DNA from: a virus
Length of the DNA: 44,855 nucleotides
Reading direction: 5' to 3' (one strand)
Virus record (IMG/VR): IMGVR_UViG_3300026455_000020
Coordinates: 1 to 44,855 of that record
Shown: piece after piece, positions 8,859-30,901 of the stretch
Layout: every line of letters begins with the position of its first letter
Position numbering within the stretch: position 1 is the first letter of the stretch
Notes under the pieces: model-generated
What the model saw: the letters and a program-made list of their open reading frames with translations, nothing else
Databases searched by the model: none
What the model was told of the DNA's origin: nothing
Position numbers and translations under genes: made by a program

Positions 8859-9224
8859 TCACACTATAGAATCGACTGGATAAACATATTCTTTGTTTAG
8901 ACGTACAACAAATTCGCCGTTGTCGTTGATATAGTAAAACATACTTCTGCTGTCCCATCTATACTGATCCCACTCTAAATTTGAGTAAGGACGACTATGG
9001 TCGAGTTCTAATCTACCTTCAAAGAAATCAACACCGTATTGAAAATCCGTAAAGTCGTTTTCTGTTAAACCTGGATTGTTGATAGTAATATCGTCTTCAT
9101 CTTTTAAACCGTCAACTTTAATAAAATAAAGCATTCCGTTGTCATCTCTTCTTAGCCCGTAGAAAAAACGTATGCTAAGGTCACCTGCTAGGTCTGATGG
9201 TTGTGTTCCAATATAGTATGTCAT
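8859..9224 (-). CDS. Small virion-associated protein, unknown function
   Basis: 121 residues. It is acidic and rich in aromatic residues (FFYGLRRDDNG, YYINDNGEFVVR, KEYVYPVDSIV), with no signal peptide or membrane segment. It lies in the late structural operon between a small beta-rich protein (11 bases away) and the giant tail protein, so a minor tail or adaptor role is inferred. I recall small proteins of this kind in marine T4-like phages but know no function. The start ATG has an AAGGAATAG ribosome-site region upstream. Confidence 0.7.
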   Translation of the reverse strand: MTYYIGTQPSDLAGDLSIRFFYGLRRDDNGMLYFIKVDGLKDEDDITINNPGLTENDFTDFQYGVDFFEGRLELDHSRPYSNLEWDQYRWDSRSMFYYINDNGEFVVRLNKEYVYPVDSIV

Positions 9225-26465: not shown

Positions 26466-28835
26466 TTATGCACTATTATTTGAAGTTTGTCTAGTGTATT
26501 TGGCTGTCTTGCTCAAATAATCCACAGCGTCTGATTGATGTGAGACTAATTGACTCATATTCATATTTAACTGATTTAACAGGTCTACCATCTCTTTGCT
26601 GGACGCATCGGATACTTTTACGTTTCCAGGTGCTCCTTCTTTTTGCTCAGACTTCATAGAGCTCTTGATGGTTTCGCTTAATTTATTAATGTTATTATTC
26701 AGTTGATCTAAATTAGTGTTATTCAAATCTTTAAATGCACTAGTTGTTGTAGTAATTTCTTCTCTAAGATTTTTTAATTTAATAACACCTGCATCGATAC
26801 TTGAACCCACTGCCTCTGGGAACATTAATTTTGAATAATCTACATCCTTTAATGCCGTTTTAAGTGCATTAACTTCTTGATTTAACTTTGCTACAGGTTC
26901 GGCAGCATTTGTCTCTGGAGGTTTTGGTGCATTTGCTTTTGGTATTTCTGCACCAGGTACTGTATTTTTAGTATTTTCCGTTTGTGCATTAGCGGCCGCA
27001 TTTGTTTTTGTCTTTAAAAAGTCTGGAGTTAGAAAATCAACAACTTCATCTTTATAAATGATTAATCCTGCTGTTGTTGCTATTGCCCAGGCCCATGGAT
27101 TCTTTATAGTGGAAACAATTTTTTCTAGTTTTCCGGCTTTTGCAACATCTTCTGCGGCTTCTGCGGCTGCTCCTGGCTTAACTGGTTCTCCTTTAGGAGT
27201 TTTAGGTTCACCACCTTTAGGTTCACCGCCACCTTTTTTCATTTCTTCATATTTTTTATAATCCATGCCAGCGGCTTTTGCACCAGCATAACCTATTGCA
27301 GTACCTACACCAGCCTTAATAAGAGCATCTGCAATCTCTTTACCTAGTGCGGCTCCAAACAATACTGGAATTCTTGCGGCTGGATCTAACTTAGCAAATT
27401 TTTCAGCGGCTGCTTCTGCACCACTTGCCGCCGATTTTAATCCAGTTGCGGTTAAATCTAGTACGCCACTTTCAATAAATGACTTCTTAAATGAATTTTG
27501 TACATTAGTTAATGTCTGATCTAAACCTGCTACTGCTCTTGTTGGGTCTGTCTTAGATGCAGCCAGACGTTTTTCTTGTTCTTCCTTGGCCATTGCGGCT
27601 GCTTTTTGCGAGTCGCCCATGCCTTGTAATACTGCTTTACCTAACATTGGAGTCATTTGACCCATAGTTGCCATTGCGGCGGCTGTTCTTCTTTCGCCTT
27701 CGCTGATATTTTCGCTGGCTTTGGCGGCTTTACTAAATCCAGCGTTCATATCGTCGACAGCAGACTTAGATCCGTTAAAAATTTCTCGGCCCATTTTACT
27801 AGCATCAACGCCTGCACTTTGCATTGTCAATGCAAATTGTCTTGCTTCAGCAGTTACAGCAACACCACCGCCAGCAATAATATCTTTAAAGCCTGCGGCC
27901 ATTTTACCAGTTGGATCTAGTTGTTCTAACTGTTTAATTTTAGCATTAACTGCCGCCTGTTGGTCTGCATCTAATTTGCCTAATGCTAATTTCATTCTAG
28001 CATCACGTTGAGATGATTTATTGGCTTCATCTATCTGTTGTCTAGATAATCCTGTTGCCTTTGATAGTCTGTCTAGTTCTTCGTTATATTTTTCTTGACC
28101 TGCAACAATTTCATCAGTGCTCATCTTTGACAAGCGACCGTTGCGTTGTTGTTGTTCCATGTAACTAGCATTATATGTTGCTAGTTCATCCATACTAAAT
28201 CCAAGCGCGGCAAATTTTTGACCGCTCTGTGCCATAAACTTGCCTTGTGTTTCAGCAAACTTAGTAGCACCAGCAGTGGCAGATCCAAACGCCATAGCCA
28301 GCGATTGGCTGTTTTCTTTTACAGTTTTTCCAAAAATTTCTAAAGGAAGTCTTGCTTCACCTGCTGATAGTTGTGCTTGTAACAATGAATCACCTAAGTC
28401 AATACCAGATCCACTTAGTGTTCTAAAAATTTGTATTTGATCTTCTAATGTTCCGCCAAATTGCTGAACTACATCGCTAACGCCCTTGATGTTTGCGCCG
28501 GGCATTTGTGCCAGTACACCAGAAAAATCTTTAATTGTAGGAGTAGTATTTGAAAATGTTTTAGCAAATGAGTCTGCACCAAGAGATACAGCATCTCCTG
28601 CTAGTTTCATTCGTGCCTTATATTCTTTTTCAGTTTCAGCACCTTTTCGCATTTGCTCAGCCCGAGCATCATTGTCTCCTGCGCCACCGCCACCGCCGGG
28701 CGTGGCACCAGGTTTTCCGCCTGCAGGTATTCCGCTTTTATTAATTGCCGCAAGTATCTGTCTAAGAGTCGAGTCTTCGGCAGCGTTTTCTACAATAACT
28801 GTTCCTACTCCAGGAACTATGGCTTTTACTGACAT
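26466..28835 (-). CDS. Tape-measure-like protein (gp29-type role)
   Basis: 789 residues. The sequence is Ala/Lys/Gly-rich and almost all helical, with weakly hydrophobic stretches near residues 475-515 (VLFGAALGKEIADALIKAG) and 580-600 (NPWAWAIATTAGLIIYKD), as expected for tape-measure proteins that cross the cell envelope. A Gly-rich linker lies at 37-55 and a Pro/Lys linker near 540. The C-terminal 180 residues are heptad-like. It is divergent from the gp26/gp51 genes. By family knowledge tape-measure length sets tail length. T4 gp29 is 590 residues, so a longer tail is suggested if this is its counterpart. No sequence motif is unique to gp29, so the call rests on composition and place. Confidence 0.65.
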   Translation of the reverse strand: MSVKAIVPGVGTVIVENAAEDSTLRQILAAINKSGIPAGGKPGATPGGGGGAGDNDARAEQMRKGAETEKEYKARMKLAGDAVSLGADSFAKTFSNTTPTIKDFSGVLAQMPGANIKGVSDVVQQFGGTLEDQIQIFRTLSGSGIDLGDSLLQAQLSAGEARLPLEIFGKTVKENSQSLAMAFGSATAGATKFAETQGKFMAQSGQKFAALGFSMDELATYNASYMEQQQRNGRLSKMSTDEIVAGQEKYNEELDRLSKATGLSRQQIDEANKSSQRDARMKLALGKLDADQQAAVNAKIKQLEQLDPTGKMAAGFKDIIAGGGVAVTAEARQFALTMQSAGVDASKMGREIFNGSKSAVDDMNAGFSKAAKASENISEGERRTAAAMATMGQMTPMLGKAVLQGMGDSQKAAAMAKEEQEKRLAASKTDPTRAVAGLDQTLTNVQNSFKKSFIESGVLDLTATGLKSAASGAEAAAEKFAKLDPAARIPVLFGAALGKEIADALIKAGVGTAIGYAGAKAAGMDYKKYEEMKKGGGEPKGGEPKTPKGEPVKPGAAAEAAEDVAKAGKLEKIVSTIKNPWAWAIATTAGLIIYKDEVVDFLTPDFLKTKTNAAANAQTENTKNTVPGAEIPKANAPKPPETNAAEPVAKLNQEVNALKTALKDVDYSKLMFPEAVGSSIDAGVIKLKNLREEITTTTSAFKDLNNTNLDQLNNNINKLSETIKSSMKSEQKEGAPGNVKVSDASSKEMVDLLNQLNMNMSQLVSHQSDAVDYLSKTAKYTRQTSNNSA

Positions 28836-28908: not shown

Positions 28909-29775
28909 ATGGAAAATCAAGTAGCAGTACCGCAAAACCCGTTGAAGAAGTACTTTAGACAACCGAAGCTCTATGTTCGTTTGCCTAGTTCTGGTAATTT
29001 TTATCCACCAGGCACGTTAGAACCTACACAAAATATGGAGTTTCCAGTTTATGCTATGACTGCTAGAGATGAAATTTCTATTAAAACACCAGACGCATTG
29101 TTAAATGGTCAAAGTACTGTTGATGTTATTCAAAGTTGTATGCCTAATATTAAAAATGCCTGGGCAATTCCTAGTATTGATATTGATGCTATATTAATTG
29201 CTATTCGTATTGCAACATATGGCGAACAAATTGATGTAGATATTGCTATTCCAAACATATCAGAAACAAAAACGTATACTACTGACCTACGATTAGCGTT
29301 AGATAAACTGTTAGATGCTACATTTGATCCAGAAGTTCGAATTAATGATGAATTAACTGCATTTTTACGTCCATTATCCTATGAAGAATTTACTAAAAGT
29401 TCTTTAAAAAGTTTAGAAGAACAACGAATTTTTACTATTGTTAACAGTCAAGAACTAACAGAAGAACAAAAGATTGCTCAATTTAATAAGAGTTTTAAAG
29501 CATTAACTGAAATTACCATGAGATCAGTGGCCAATGGATTAGTCAAAGTTGTTACGCCTGAAGGCGAAGTAAGTGATCCAGCATTTATTAAAGAGTTTAT
29601 CGATAATGCTGACAAAGAATTTTATACTAAAATCATCGATCACTTGGAAAAACAACGCATTAAGTTTCAAATGCCGTCGTTTAAAATTCAAACTACAGCA
29701 GAAGAGCAAGCTCAAGGTGCTCCTGCTGAATTTGAAACTCCTATAGGACTAGACGCTTCAAATTTTTTCGCGTAA
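28909..29775 (+). CDS. 26: Baseplate hub protein gp26 (T4_baseplate family)
   Basis: 288 residues. The T4 gp26 family pattern is plain: YVRLPSSGNFYPPG at about 22-36, VYAMTARDEISIKTPDALLNG at about 46-67 (given in part) and VIQSCMP. In T4 gp26 takes part in assembly of the central baseplate hub. The stop at 29773-29775 is preceded by A AAT TTT TTC, a -1 slippery site that would carry ribosomes into gp51. The gene stands beside the tape-measure candidate, as do the frameshifted tail-assembly chaperone genes of lambda. It has an exact late promoter and a GGAG ribosome site. Confidence 0.9.
   Translation: MENQVAVPQNPLKKYFRQPKLYVRLPSSGNFYPPGTLEPTQNMEFPVYAMTARDEISIKTPDALLNGQSTVDVIQSCMPNIKNAWAIPSIDIDAILIAIRIATYGEQIDVDIAIPNISETKTYTTDLRLALDKLLDATFDPEVRINDELTAFLRPLSYEEFTKSSLKSLEEQRIFTIVNSQELTEEQKIAQFNKSFKALTEITMRSVANGLVKVVTPEGEVSDPAFIKEFIDNADKEFYTKIIDHLEKQRIKFQMPSFKIQTTAEEQAQGAPAEFETPIGLDASNFFA
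29760..29766 (+). promoter_or_regulatory. -1 ribosomal frameshift site (A AAT TTT)
   Basis: The heptamer AAATTTT is in the X-XXY-YYZ phase of the gp26 frame (tca aat ttt ttc gcg taa), three codons before the stop. Slipping back one base places both tRNAs on AAA and TTT. A possible hairpin CTCTT/AAGAG lies downstream at about 29778-29810. Confidence 0.75.
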
Positions 29776-29999
29776 AGCTCTTCAGCCTAACACTCGAAGA
29801 CGCACTAAGAGTAGTTGAGGGGCTAGATAAAGAAGCAAAGTCCATAAGAACCGAATTGTTTAAATTGTGCTGGTATATGAGAGGTAGCATCACCATAGAT
29901 GACGCATTTGCATTATCCTATGAAGATCGTGAAATCATATCGAATATTATCAAAGAGAATTTAGAAACTACTAAGAAATCAGGATTACCCTTTTTCTAA
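29766..29999 (+). CDS. 51: gp51-like baseplate hub assembly protein, made as gp26-gp51 -1 frameshift extension
   Basis: 77 residues read in the -1 frame from the slippery site: FRVKLFSLTLEDALRVVEGL at the start, then WYMRGSITIDDAFALSYEDR, then a TTKKSGLPFF end. The MRG-x-I-x-I-DDA and ETTKKSGLPF patterns are those of T4-like gp51, a catalyst of hub assembly. A stop codon in this frame lies shortly upstream (about 29729). Between it and the conserved part there is no ATG or GTG; the first TTG is well inside the domain. Expression as a 363-residue gp26-gp51 fusion is therefore inferred, analogous to lambda gpG-T. The domain is too short to appear as a free-standing gene. Confidence 0.8.
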   Translation, partial: FRVKLFSLTLEDALRVVEGLDKEAKSIRTELFKLCWYMRGSITIDDAFALSYEDREIISNIIKENLETTKKSGLPFF

Positions 30000-30442
30000 T
30001 ACTTCAAGATTCACTGCGTTCATCTGTTCATCGCTTCGCTCGAACTATTTGTTTTATTTTAATTATAGAGCATTATTAAGTGCGAAGCACTTTAGCATTA
30101 TCCAGATTGTTCAGTCACACTTCGCCCGCACAGGGCAAAGTTAAAAACATTATCCGAGTTGCACAATGTCACACAGCGTTAGAGCATTACAGTGGCGGTT
30201 GTCCGGTACCACGAGCTCCGTCTTATCACAACGGCGGTAAACAAATATACGCTATCATACTTGCTTACGTGAGGTTTTTCTCCTCTCCTTGAGCCTTTTC
30301 TTCTTAAAACAGCAAAACCGCGGCAATTTGCGATCCTCGTCCTGTTAAGGATAGTTGCTGAGTACTCTTAACGGCAAGAGAATTCCGTCCCTGCGACCCG
30401 AGGTCCAGGTATAGAGCGCACGAATTTAGCCTGCGCTAGCCA
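30000..30442. ncRNA. Candidate structured RNA in the convergent gap after gp51
   Basis: 443 bases with no credible gene on either strand. Two 60-base lines (30181-30240 and 30361-30420) each count 33 G/C, well above the AT-rich flanks. Stems include AAGTGC/GCACTT (30078-30092), GCCC/GGGC near 30125, GTGG-CGG/CCG-CCAC (30192-30212), CTGTTAAG/CTTAACGG (30342-30374) and GCGCA/TGCGC (30416-30436). TAGAGCATTA occurs twice (30066, 30180) and an imperfect CATTATCC...TCACAC repeat twice (30096, 30148). No known RNA family is recognised, and the strand is uncertain: on the minus strand a late-promoter-like GGCTAAATTC lies at 30422-30431. Confidence 0.45.
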
Positions 30443-30886
30443 TTAACCGTTTGATTTTGCCTGTGCTTGTTCTAATAAACGCTGTCTTAGTATATTTGAT
30501 CCGCCTACTCTAACATTAATAATACCGTTATAGTAGTCGTCAGTTTCTAAAACCCTACGTTCGAACTGCTCTCTTGCCTCTAGATAAGACATTTCTGCCT
30601 TGGATTTGCAAAAATAAAGTATTTCTCTTGTGAATTTTTCTGGACCTAGTGCGTGGACGTCTGCTTGTAATCTCTCAGATGAGCCCCAATATTCGCGCCA
30701 ATCGCTTTCTACTGTGCTACGTCTTTTGAGTTTTTTGCCTTTGAGTGGTGGTTTTGTACGCTTAAACTGTGCTAGTTTTTTGCCTATATATTTCTGTCCA
30801 GATTGGTTGTTAGTGATGAGATAAACAAAGCCTATAACGCCTTCGGGTATTTCTTCAACTAATACATTTTGATAGTGCCACGACAT
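30443..30886 (-). CDS. GIY-YIG endonuclease (SegE-like)
   Basis: 147 residues from the ATG at 30886 (MSWHYQNVLVEEIP); an ATG two codons upstream is also possible and neither has a strong ribosome site. The nuclease core has GFVYLI and YIGKK, the two halves of the GIY-YIG motif, at about residues 19-37. YWGSS, FTREIL and YLEAREQFER follow, which supply the usual Arg and Glu, and YYN lies near the end. Relatives of T4 SegE with this layout are common in T4-like phages, where some are free-standing homing nucleases and others are fixed phage genes. It shares a transcript direction with gp46/gp47 and borders the candidate RNA region. Confidence 0.8.
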   Translation of the reverse strand: MSWHYQNVLVEEIPEGVIGFVYLITNNQSGQKYIGKKLAQFKRTKPPLKGKKLKRRSTVESDWREYWGSSERLQADVHALGPEKFTREILYFCKSKAEMSYLEAREQFERRVLETDDYYNGIINVRVGGSNILRQRLLEQAQAKSNG

Positions 30887-30901
30887 GCACATATATACCA
30901 G

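Follow-up and report, generated by a model that had tools for sequence, protein, structure and literature searches.

A conserved slippery heptamer at the end of gp26 predicts a frameshifted tail-assembly chaperone in a jumbo phage clade of the T4 superfamily

Introduction

How does a T4-like phage produce a gp51-like domain that overlaps the end of gp26 in another reading frame and has no evident start codon of its own? The question is raised by the IMG/VR virus record IMGVR_UViG_3300026455_000020, whose full 44,855 nucleotides were analysed as one stretch (hereafter the window). A preliminary description of this DNA had proposed that gp51 is made only by -1 frameshifting from gp26 and that the two proteins act as a tail-assembly chaperone pair with a fused product, leaving open whether such an arrangement had been described before.

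Vladimirov, Gautam and Davidson (Virology 2022, 566:9-15) reportedly found frameshifting to be conserved in several T4-like groups, with T4 itself using genes 26 and 51. The frameshift is thus not new: PMC10885494 refers to Vladimirov, Gautam and Davidson 2022 for T4-like phages in which one chaperone gene is short and another is fused, and PMC12846349 cites the same work for -1 sites of the poly-T type in the TAC-N genes of T4-like phages. Because these citing papers credit the 2022 study, the core idea must be regarded as already published. What is added here is the clade to which the window belongs, the exact signal and the conservation of that signal; the 2022 paper may itself cover the clade, the SD-like element and the stem. 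Other sources list T4 gp26 and gp51 as hub assembly chaperones (PMC3004832), describe G-T frameshifting as widely conserved 'except T4' (PMC5009743), and report cyanophage gp51 as short by about 200 residues and Aeh1 as being without gp51, the accessible text making no mention of a frameshift (PMC3037559).

Materials and methods

Relatives were gathered by gp26 similarity alone. The resulting census of 178 genes comprised the window, 80 window-clade contigs (the best 80 of 126), 80 cyanophage-type contigs (the best 80 of at least 594), two KVP40-type contigs, nine annotated jumbo phages and six T4-like references. Removal of near-duplicates at 90% nucleotide identity left 147 representatives, among them 58 of the window clade (the window and 57 relatives, drawn from the best 80 of 126) and 72 of the cyanophage type (71 in some analyses, drawn from the best 80 of at least 594); four of the 147 have a truncated -1 ORF. 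Contig L004, of the same group as L003, was left out of the census, and the gp26 start of L065 was reset to the longest open frame.

The T4-type gp26 genes (T4, nine contigs and Aeromonas UP87) were handled apart from the census. Ten T4-type contigs were available, nine of them with a complete gp26 (L131 is the one without), and L137 was excluded from the gp51 alignment, its gp26 being counted in the T4-type set. Three wide phage searches (686, 859 and 1225 records) served the choice of further phages, whose junctions stand outside the counts. Folding z scores were computed in 45-nt sliding windows.

Results

The gp26 gene of the window ends in a slippery heptamer

The gp26-family gene, a TAC-N-like short form, lies at 28909-29775 on the plus strand and encodes 288 aa ending in NFFA. 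Its product matches T4_baseplate in Pfam (PF12322, E 4.4e-8) and the 'baseplate hub' family PHROG 150 (E 3.5e-11), and with a score of 96.3% in hhalign against four cyanophage-type gp26 sequences the short form is a member of the gp26 family. Within the 44,855-base record, possibly only a fragment of the genome, PHROG 150 is found in a single place, gp26 itself. Identity to gp26 among the 59 phage records matched is at most 35.7%, and by sequence comparison the window is a member of a distant jumbo clade.

The final codons of the gene read tca aat ttt ttc gcg taa, exactly as had been described. The preliminary description had taken A_AAT_TTT at 29760-29766 as the slippery heptamer; this heptamer is present on the plus strand and may be an extra site, but the conserved one is the overlapping T_TTT_TTC at 29763-29769 (plus strand, zero-frame codons AAT TTT TTC), one codon ahead of the zero-frame stop TAA at 29773-29775. 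As the main slippery site A_AAT_TTT is ruled out, being found in only 20 of the 147 representatives, all of them within the 58 of the window clade.

Two of the 27 genes tested in the window (31 ORFs minus four overlapping opposite-strand ORFs) have any X_XXY_YYZ heptamer in their last 12 codons, gp26 being one of the two. One further in-frame T_TTT_TTC exists among these genes; it lies in the gene at 8859-9224, at codon 20.

The heptamer is conserved among relatives

The comparison of gp26-gp51 junctions across relatives, suggested at the outset as a check on the frameshift, gave a uniform result: all 178 genes of the census have T_TTT_TT[CT] in frame near the gp26 end, no more than 11 codons ahead of the stop, and it recurs at none of the 45,963 codon positions that these genes have elsewhere. 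The predicted slippery site at the end of gp26 is, on sequence grounds, more than a product of chance. Among the 147 representatives it is TTTTTTC in 145 and TTTTTTT in 2, and the zero-frame stop lies exactly one codon past it in 130. The residue preceding the heptamer varies (S 61, N 34, D 18, T 18, A 9, H 5, Y 1, R 1), and its codon ends in T in all 147, where codon usage predicts 89.4. Of five named phages checked besides the census, Cronobacter S13, pf16, Melnitz-3 and Astolliot carry the site as well, and the T4-type phage Aeromonas UP87 does not. The predicted signal is conserved in cyanophage-type, Pelagibacter, Rhizobiales, Vibrio and Aeromonas phages and in jumbo phages of the RaK2/121Q/Atu_ph07 type.

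The -1 frame continues beyond the gp26 stop

In the window, the -1 frame is open at 29736-29996 and reads ...FFRVKLFSLTLEDALRVVEGLDKEAKSIRTELFKLCWYMRGSITIDDAFALSYEDREIISNIIKENLETTKKSGLPFF. It is preceded by a stop at 29733-29735 and runs on past gp26 through the motifs MRGSITIDDA and TTKKSGLPF, both as the preliminary description had it, with 76 codons following the slippage point (29769-29996). The extension, a TAC-C-like domain, thus occupies 29769-29999 on the plus strand including its stop TAA at 29997-29999, and the predicted fusion would measure 287 + 76 = 363 aa. The absence of a start before the conserved part also proved correct: ahead of the middle of the window's extension there is no ATG, GTG or TTG, the first candidates being TTG at 29856 and then ATG at 29877 inside YMRG, so that internal initiation would cost about half of the conserved domain.

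The extension is conserved as a protein. FFR, W37, MRG, N66 and P76 show no variation across the 43 window-clade products aligned (window included), and the -1 ORF counts 78 codons from FF in all 56 untruncated window-clade relatives. G follows the heptamer in all 58 window-clade sequences and in 69 of 71 of the cyanophage type, which makes the next -1 codon CGN (Arg), and from just past the heptamer onward positional entropy matches the codon positions of the -1 frame. Translation of the -1 frame through the junction appears to be the best reading of these patterns.

Candidate stimulatory elements around the heptamer

A predicted RNA stem-loop, a candidate stimulator, begins 6 nt past the window's heptamer (29776-29824, plus strand) and has an 11-bp outer stem (29776-29786 paired with 29814-29824). 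Its stability of -18.0 kcal/mol (z -1.93, with 6 of 200 shuffles as stable) is only modestly significant; in the window's own folding profile the junction, with z -1.6 at +12, is not the lowest point, and there are other stretches with values as low or lower, such as z -2.8 at +120. Averaged over relatives, the folding z minimum just 3′ of the heptamer is -3.63 at +3 in the cyanophage type (82% below -2), -1.25 at +12 in window-clade relatives and -1.22 at +3 in the nine jumbo references. Covariation in the window-clade stem is not above controls, since an equal score is obtained with the stem slid by -1 and is reached by 43 of 500 shuffles; the set, 20 sequences out of the 58, is moreover biased, because it was picked after the folds had been viewed.

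The cyanophage-type stem comprises 10 bp and likewise starts 6 nt past the heptamer, with 92.6% of cells paired in 47 of the 71 sequences (the upper part, L139-L193, when ranked by similarity to the query) and 79.3% over all 71. In the 47-sequence subset covariation is 0.148 versus 0.059 in shuffles and at most 0.037 when the stem is slid; column 21/35 is occupied by UA in 20, AU in 11 and GC in 11 sequences, and this single pair supplies 23 of the 24 two-sided changes. For the 71 mixed cyanophage-type sequences RNAalifold returned no consensus pairs, which we think is due to shifted stems among the subclades, and the named stem was therefore counted directly.

Upstream of the heptamer, an SD-like stretch peaks at about 16 nt in 92% of the 72 cyanophage-type genes (12% in other upstream stretches) and is found in 8 of 8 reference and KVP40-type genes (18% in other upstream stretches). 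The corresponding count in the window clade is 0 of 58. In 64 of the 72 cyanophage-type genes the end of a GAGG lies exactly 10 nt ahead of the heptamer, and GAG at the SD-like site (64/72) compares with 502 of 1713 Glu codons elsewhere (binomial 6e-26, a value that ignores relatedness).

Start codons and alternative readings of the junction

We considered whether the C-terminal domain could instead be a separate small protein, produced by translational coupling or by reinitiation at the gp26 stop. The records of P-SSM2, KVP40 and 121Q annotate a distinct small gene at the junction, and 70 of the 72 cyanophage-type representatives have a -1 frame ATG within 24 nt of the slippery codon. Near the junction, the window and 19 of its 57 clade relatives are without any start codon; in 32 relatives the only candidate is a TTG or GTG, and the other 6 offer an ATG. 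Aeh1 and HTVC008M also lack a start codon near the junction. Against independent initiation, conservation in the -1 frame already covers the FFR stretch, which lies ahead of the start codons, and the GAGG that ends 10 nt before the heptamer is, by SD spacing rules, too far from the ATG to serve it. Independent initiation would also leave the heptamer unexplained, and among the window-clade loci (the best 80 of 126) there is none that lacks the slippery site and relies on a gp51 start of its own. We therefore consider it improbable that the domain is made solely as a separate protein. Since 70 of 72 cyanophage-type representatives do have an ATG, a separate start is possible there, and in those phages frameshifting and a separate start could both operate.

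The frame might also be changed by RNA polymerase slipping on the T run rather than by the ribosome, in keeping with the conservation of a homopolymer. Of the 147 representatives, 145 have a run of exactly 6 T and 2 a run of 7 T, which is short for bacterial polymerase slippage, and its phase, the cyanophage-type SD-like element and the 3′ stem fit ribosomal slippage, making a transcriptional origin very improbable.

Finally, that the heptamer reflects a mere Phe-Phe constraint under AT-rich codon use, with the -1 ORF a relic, may draw on TTT being the common Phe codon (78%) and on the 6 of 9 T4-type gp26 genes (T4 likewise) that keep Phe-Phe as TTC TTT, without the slippery order, but it has next to no chance of being correct when TTT TTC occupies 145 of 147 junctions versus 2 of the 86 other Phe-Phe pairs of the same genes (45 TTC TTT, 35 TTT TTT, none after T, and 4 TTC TTC; heptamer 0/86) and the -1 ORF keeps its constant length with protein-like conservation. 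Programmed ribosomal slippage is the reading that we carry forward.

T4 gp51 and the domain encoded in the -1 frame

T4 gp26 (208 aa) and gp51 (249 aa) are encoded on opposite strands. BLASTP (E 2e-6) shows them to be paralogues, PF12322 is matched end to end by each, and the end of PHROG 150 is reached by gp51 only, not by gp26. This paralogy, together with the extension particular to gp51, suggests that T4 carries the short and the long form as two genes. In P-SSM2, S-PM2, HTVC008M, phiM12 and Aeh1, PHROG 150 covers gp26 to about 235, with the rest in the overlapping -1 frame. PHROG 634 places the gp51 domain in the overlapping frame in KVP40 and likewise in PhiW-14; a search with this family did not find the domain in RaK2 or at the Atu_ph07 junction. 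The -1 domain of the cyanophage type (31 sequences, one of them KVP40-type) aligns to positions 200-246 of T4-type gp51 (92.7%, E 4e-7). As judged from these alignments, T4 gp51 is a gp26-like protein joined to the domain that cyanophages encode in the -1 frame, and looks like the same long form encoded in a single frame. The slippery site is found in none of the nine complete T4-type gp26 genes and is absent from T4 and from gp26 of UP87.

The -1 domain of the window had been called gp51-like, an assignment favoured by position, role and a chain of relatives; a direct sequence match was not found in the window clade. The window-clade domain matches that of the nine annotated jumbo references at 99.5%. 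Both the window-clade and the jumbo domains match cyanophage-type gp51 weakly (5-6%), yet in register, and against T4-type gp51 hhalign gives the window-clade domain 4.8%, in the wrong region. The window's own domain has no match to PHROG 634 at E<=10, and a profile of window-clade gp26 set against T4-type gp51 gave no match (0.3%). PF12322 is matched by both window gp26 and T4 gp51. A Pfam scan of the 31 cyanophage-type -1 domains returned only weak unrelated matches. In comparisons with solved structures, the gp26 model gave nothing useful (best E 0.54), and the T4-type gp51 model reached a best Z of 4.9 with unrelated folds and no known chaperone, a result that excludes nothing. The name gp51 for the window-clade -1 domain thus rests on position and role.

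Several further observations concern these families. A gp51 domain in the -1 frame is present but unannotated in Aeh1 (NC_005260, about 118,830-119,010, minus strand) and just past gp26 in Cronobacter S13 (KC954775). In the IMG/VR contig L137 (about 1483-2255) a T4-type gp51 is split into two frames, by sequencing error or by a real change. Among viral predicted structures, the gp26 model matched gp26-like proteins and uncharacterised proteins of about 500 aa from other jumbo phages (e.g. Erwinia Special G, Ralstonia RSF1 and RP12), which may be distant gp26-type chaperones.

Neighbouring genes

Divergent from gp26, a 789-aa ORF on the minus strand (26466-28835) had been put forward as the tape-measure candidate. 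In RaK2 the gene in this position carries an annotation of similarity to a tail tape measure protein, which makes this plausible, but a family search with the 789-aa neighbour gave no informative match and its identity is unproved.

On the other side, the gap after the -1 ORF contains a strong match to the Rfam family RF01718, Polynucleobacter-1 RNA (30307-30441, minus strand, 119.3 bits, E 3e-27). Of 20 related loci scanned, 10 have RF01718 too (L019, L020, L021, L022, L024, L036, L039, L041, L068 and L085); by these matches, the jumbo phage lineage of the window carries this structured RNA. The adjoining ORF at 30443-30892 (minus strand) matches PHROG 447 'NAD synthetase' as well as several homing endonuclease families, and the former label may be wrong.

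Discussion

Taken together, the locus would encode a tail-assembly chaperone in two forms by -1 programmed frameshifting, a reading to which we give a probability of roughly 90%. The proposal of a frameshifted chaperone pair is supported by the conserved signal and by the paralogy of T4 gp26 and gp51; we infer the slippage itself, its efficiency and the chaperone role.

Most ribosomes would stop at the TAA at 29773 and release the 288-aa short form, gp26. A minority pausing at T_TTT_TTC, probably aided by the downstream stem, would slip into the -1 frame as two tRNA-Phe shift together, from TTT to TTT in the P site and from TTC to TTT in the A site, and would yield the fusion of about 363 aa with its 76-residue C-terminal domain. 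On the model of lambda gpG/gpGT, the tape measure protein would be coated by many copies of the short form and few of the long, tail-tube subunits would be brought in by the extra domain, and both forms would depart before the tail is completed. In T4 the two forms would come from separate genes, 26 and 51.

We also think it likely, as a joint reading, that frameshifting is ancestral in the T4 superfamily, from cyanophages to jumbo phages of the RaK2/Atu_ph07 type, that T4 and its close kin are derived through duplication and loss of the site, and that the signal comes in two types. The first would combine an SD-like element, the heptamer and a stem in cyanophage-type and T4-like relatives; the second, in the jumbo clade of the window, would consist of the heptamer without an SD-like element and possibly with a stem.

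If correct, these readings would amend the annotation of the T4-like records examined, where gp26 is entered as a 'baseplate hub' subunit and gp51 as a separate 'hub assembly catalyst' or, as in Aeh1, not at all. In line with the 2022 paper, they would also account for cyanophage gp51 seeming to lack its first 200 residues (PMC3037559) and for T4 as an apparent exception to G/GT frameshifting (PMC5009743). The signal architecture and its SD-less variant offer concrete, testable recoding elements.

Among known systems, the E. coli dnaX signal consists of an SD-like element, 10 nt, the heptamer A_AAA_AAG, a short spacer and a stem-loop. Its layout is shared by the cyanophage-type relatives, but their heptamer is U_UUU_UUC, and the window clade differs in being without the SD-like element. 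The slippery site of lambda gpG/gpGT is G_GGA_AAG, unlike the heptamer of the window. In lambda, too, the short chaperone gene has a -1 frameshift close to its end, which adds a C-terminal extension (PMC5009743), but no sequence or fold match to the window locus was found and the gp26 family is separate. The TAC locus of Vandenendeviridae and Andersonviridae likewise has a conserved poly-T -1 frameshift at the 3′ end of TAC-N, with the motif GTTTTT and in phage families other than that of the window (PMC12846349). The T4-like TAC-N/TAC-NC genes, as the citing papers describe them, share with the window locus the poly-T -1 signal and a long form made as a fusion, while some of these phages carry separate short and fused genes instead.
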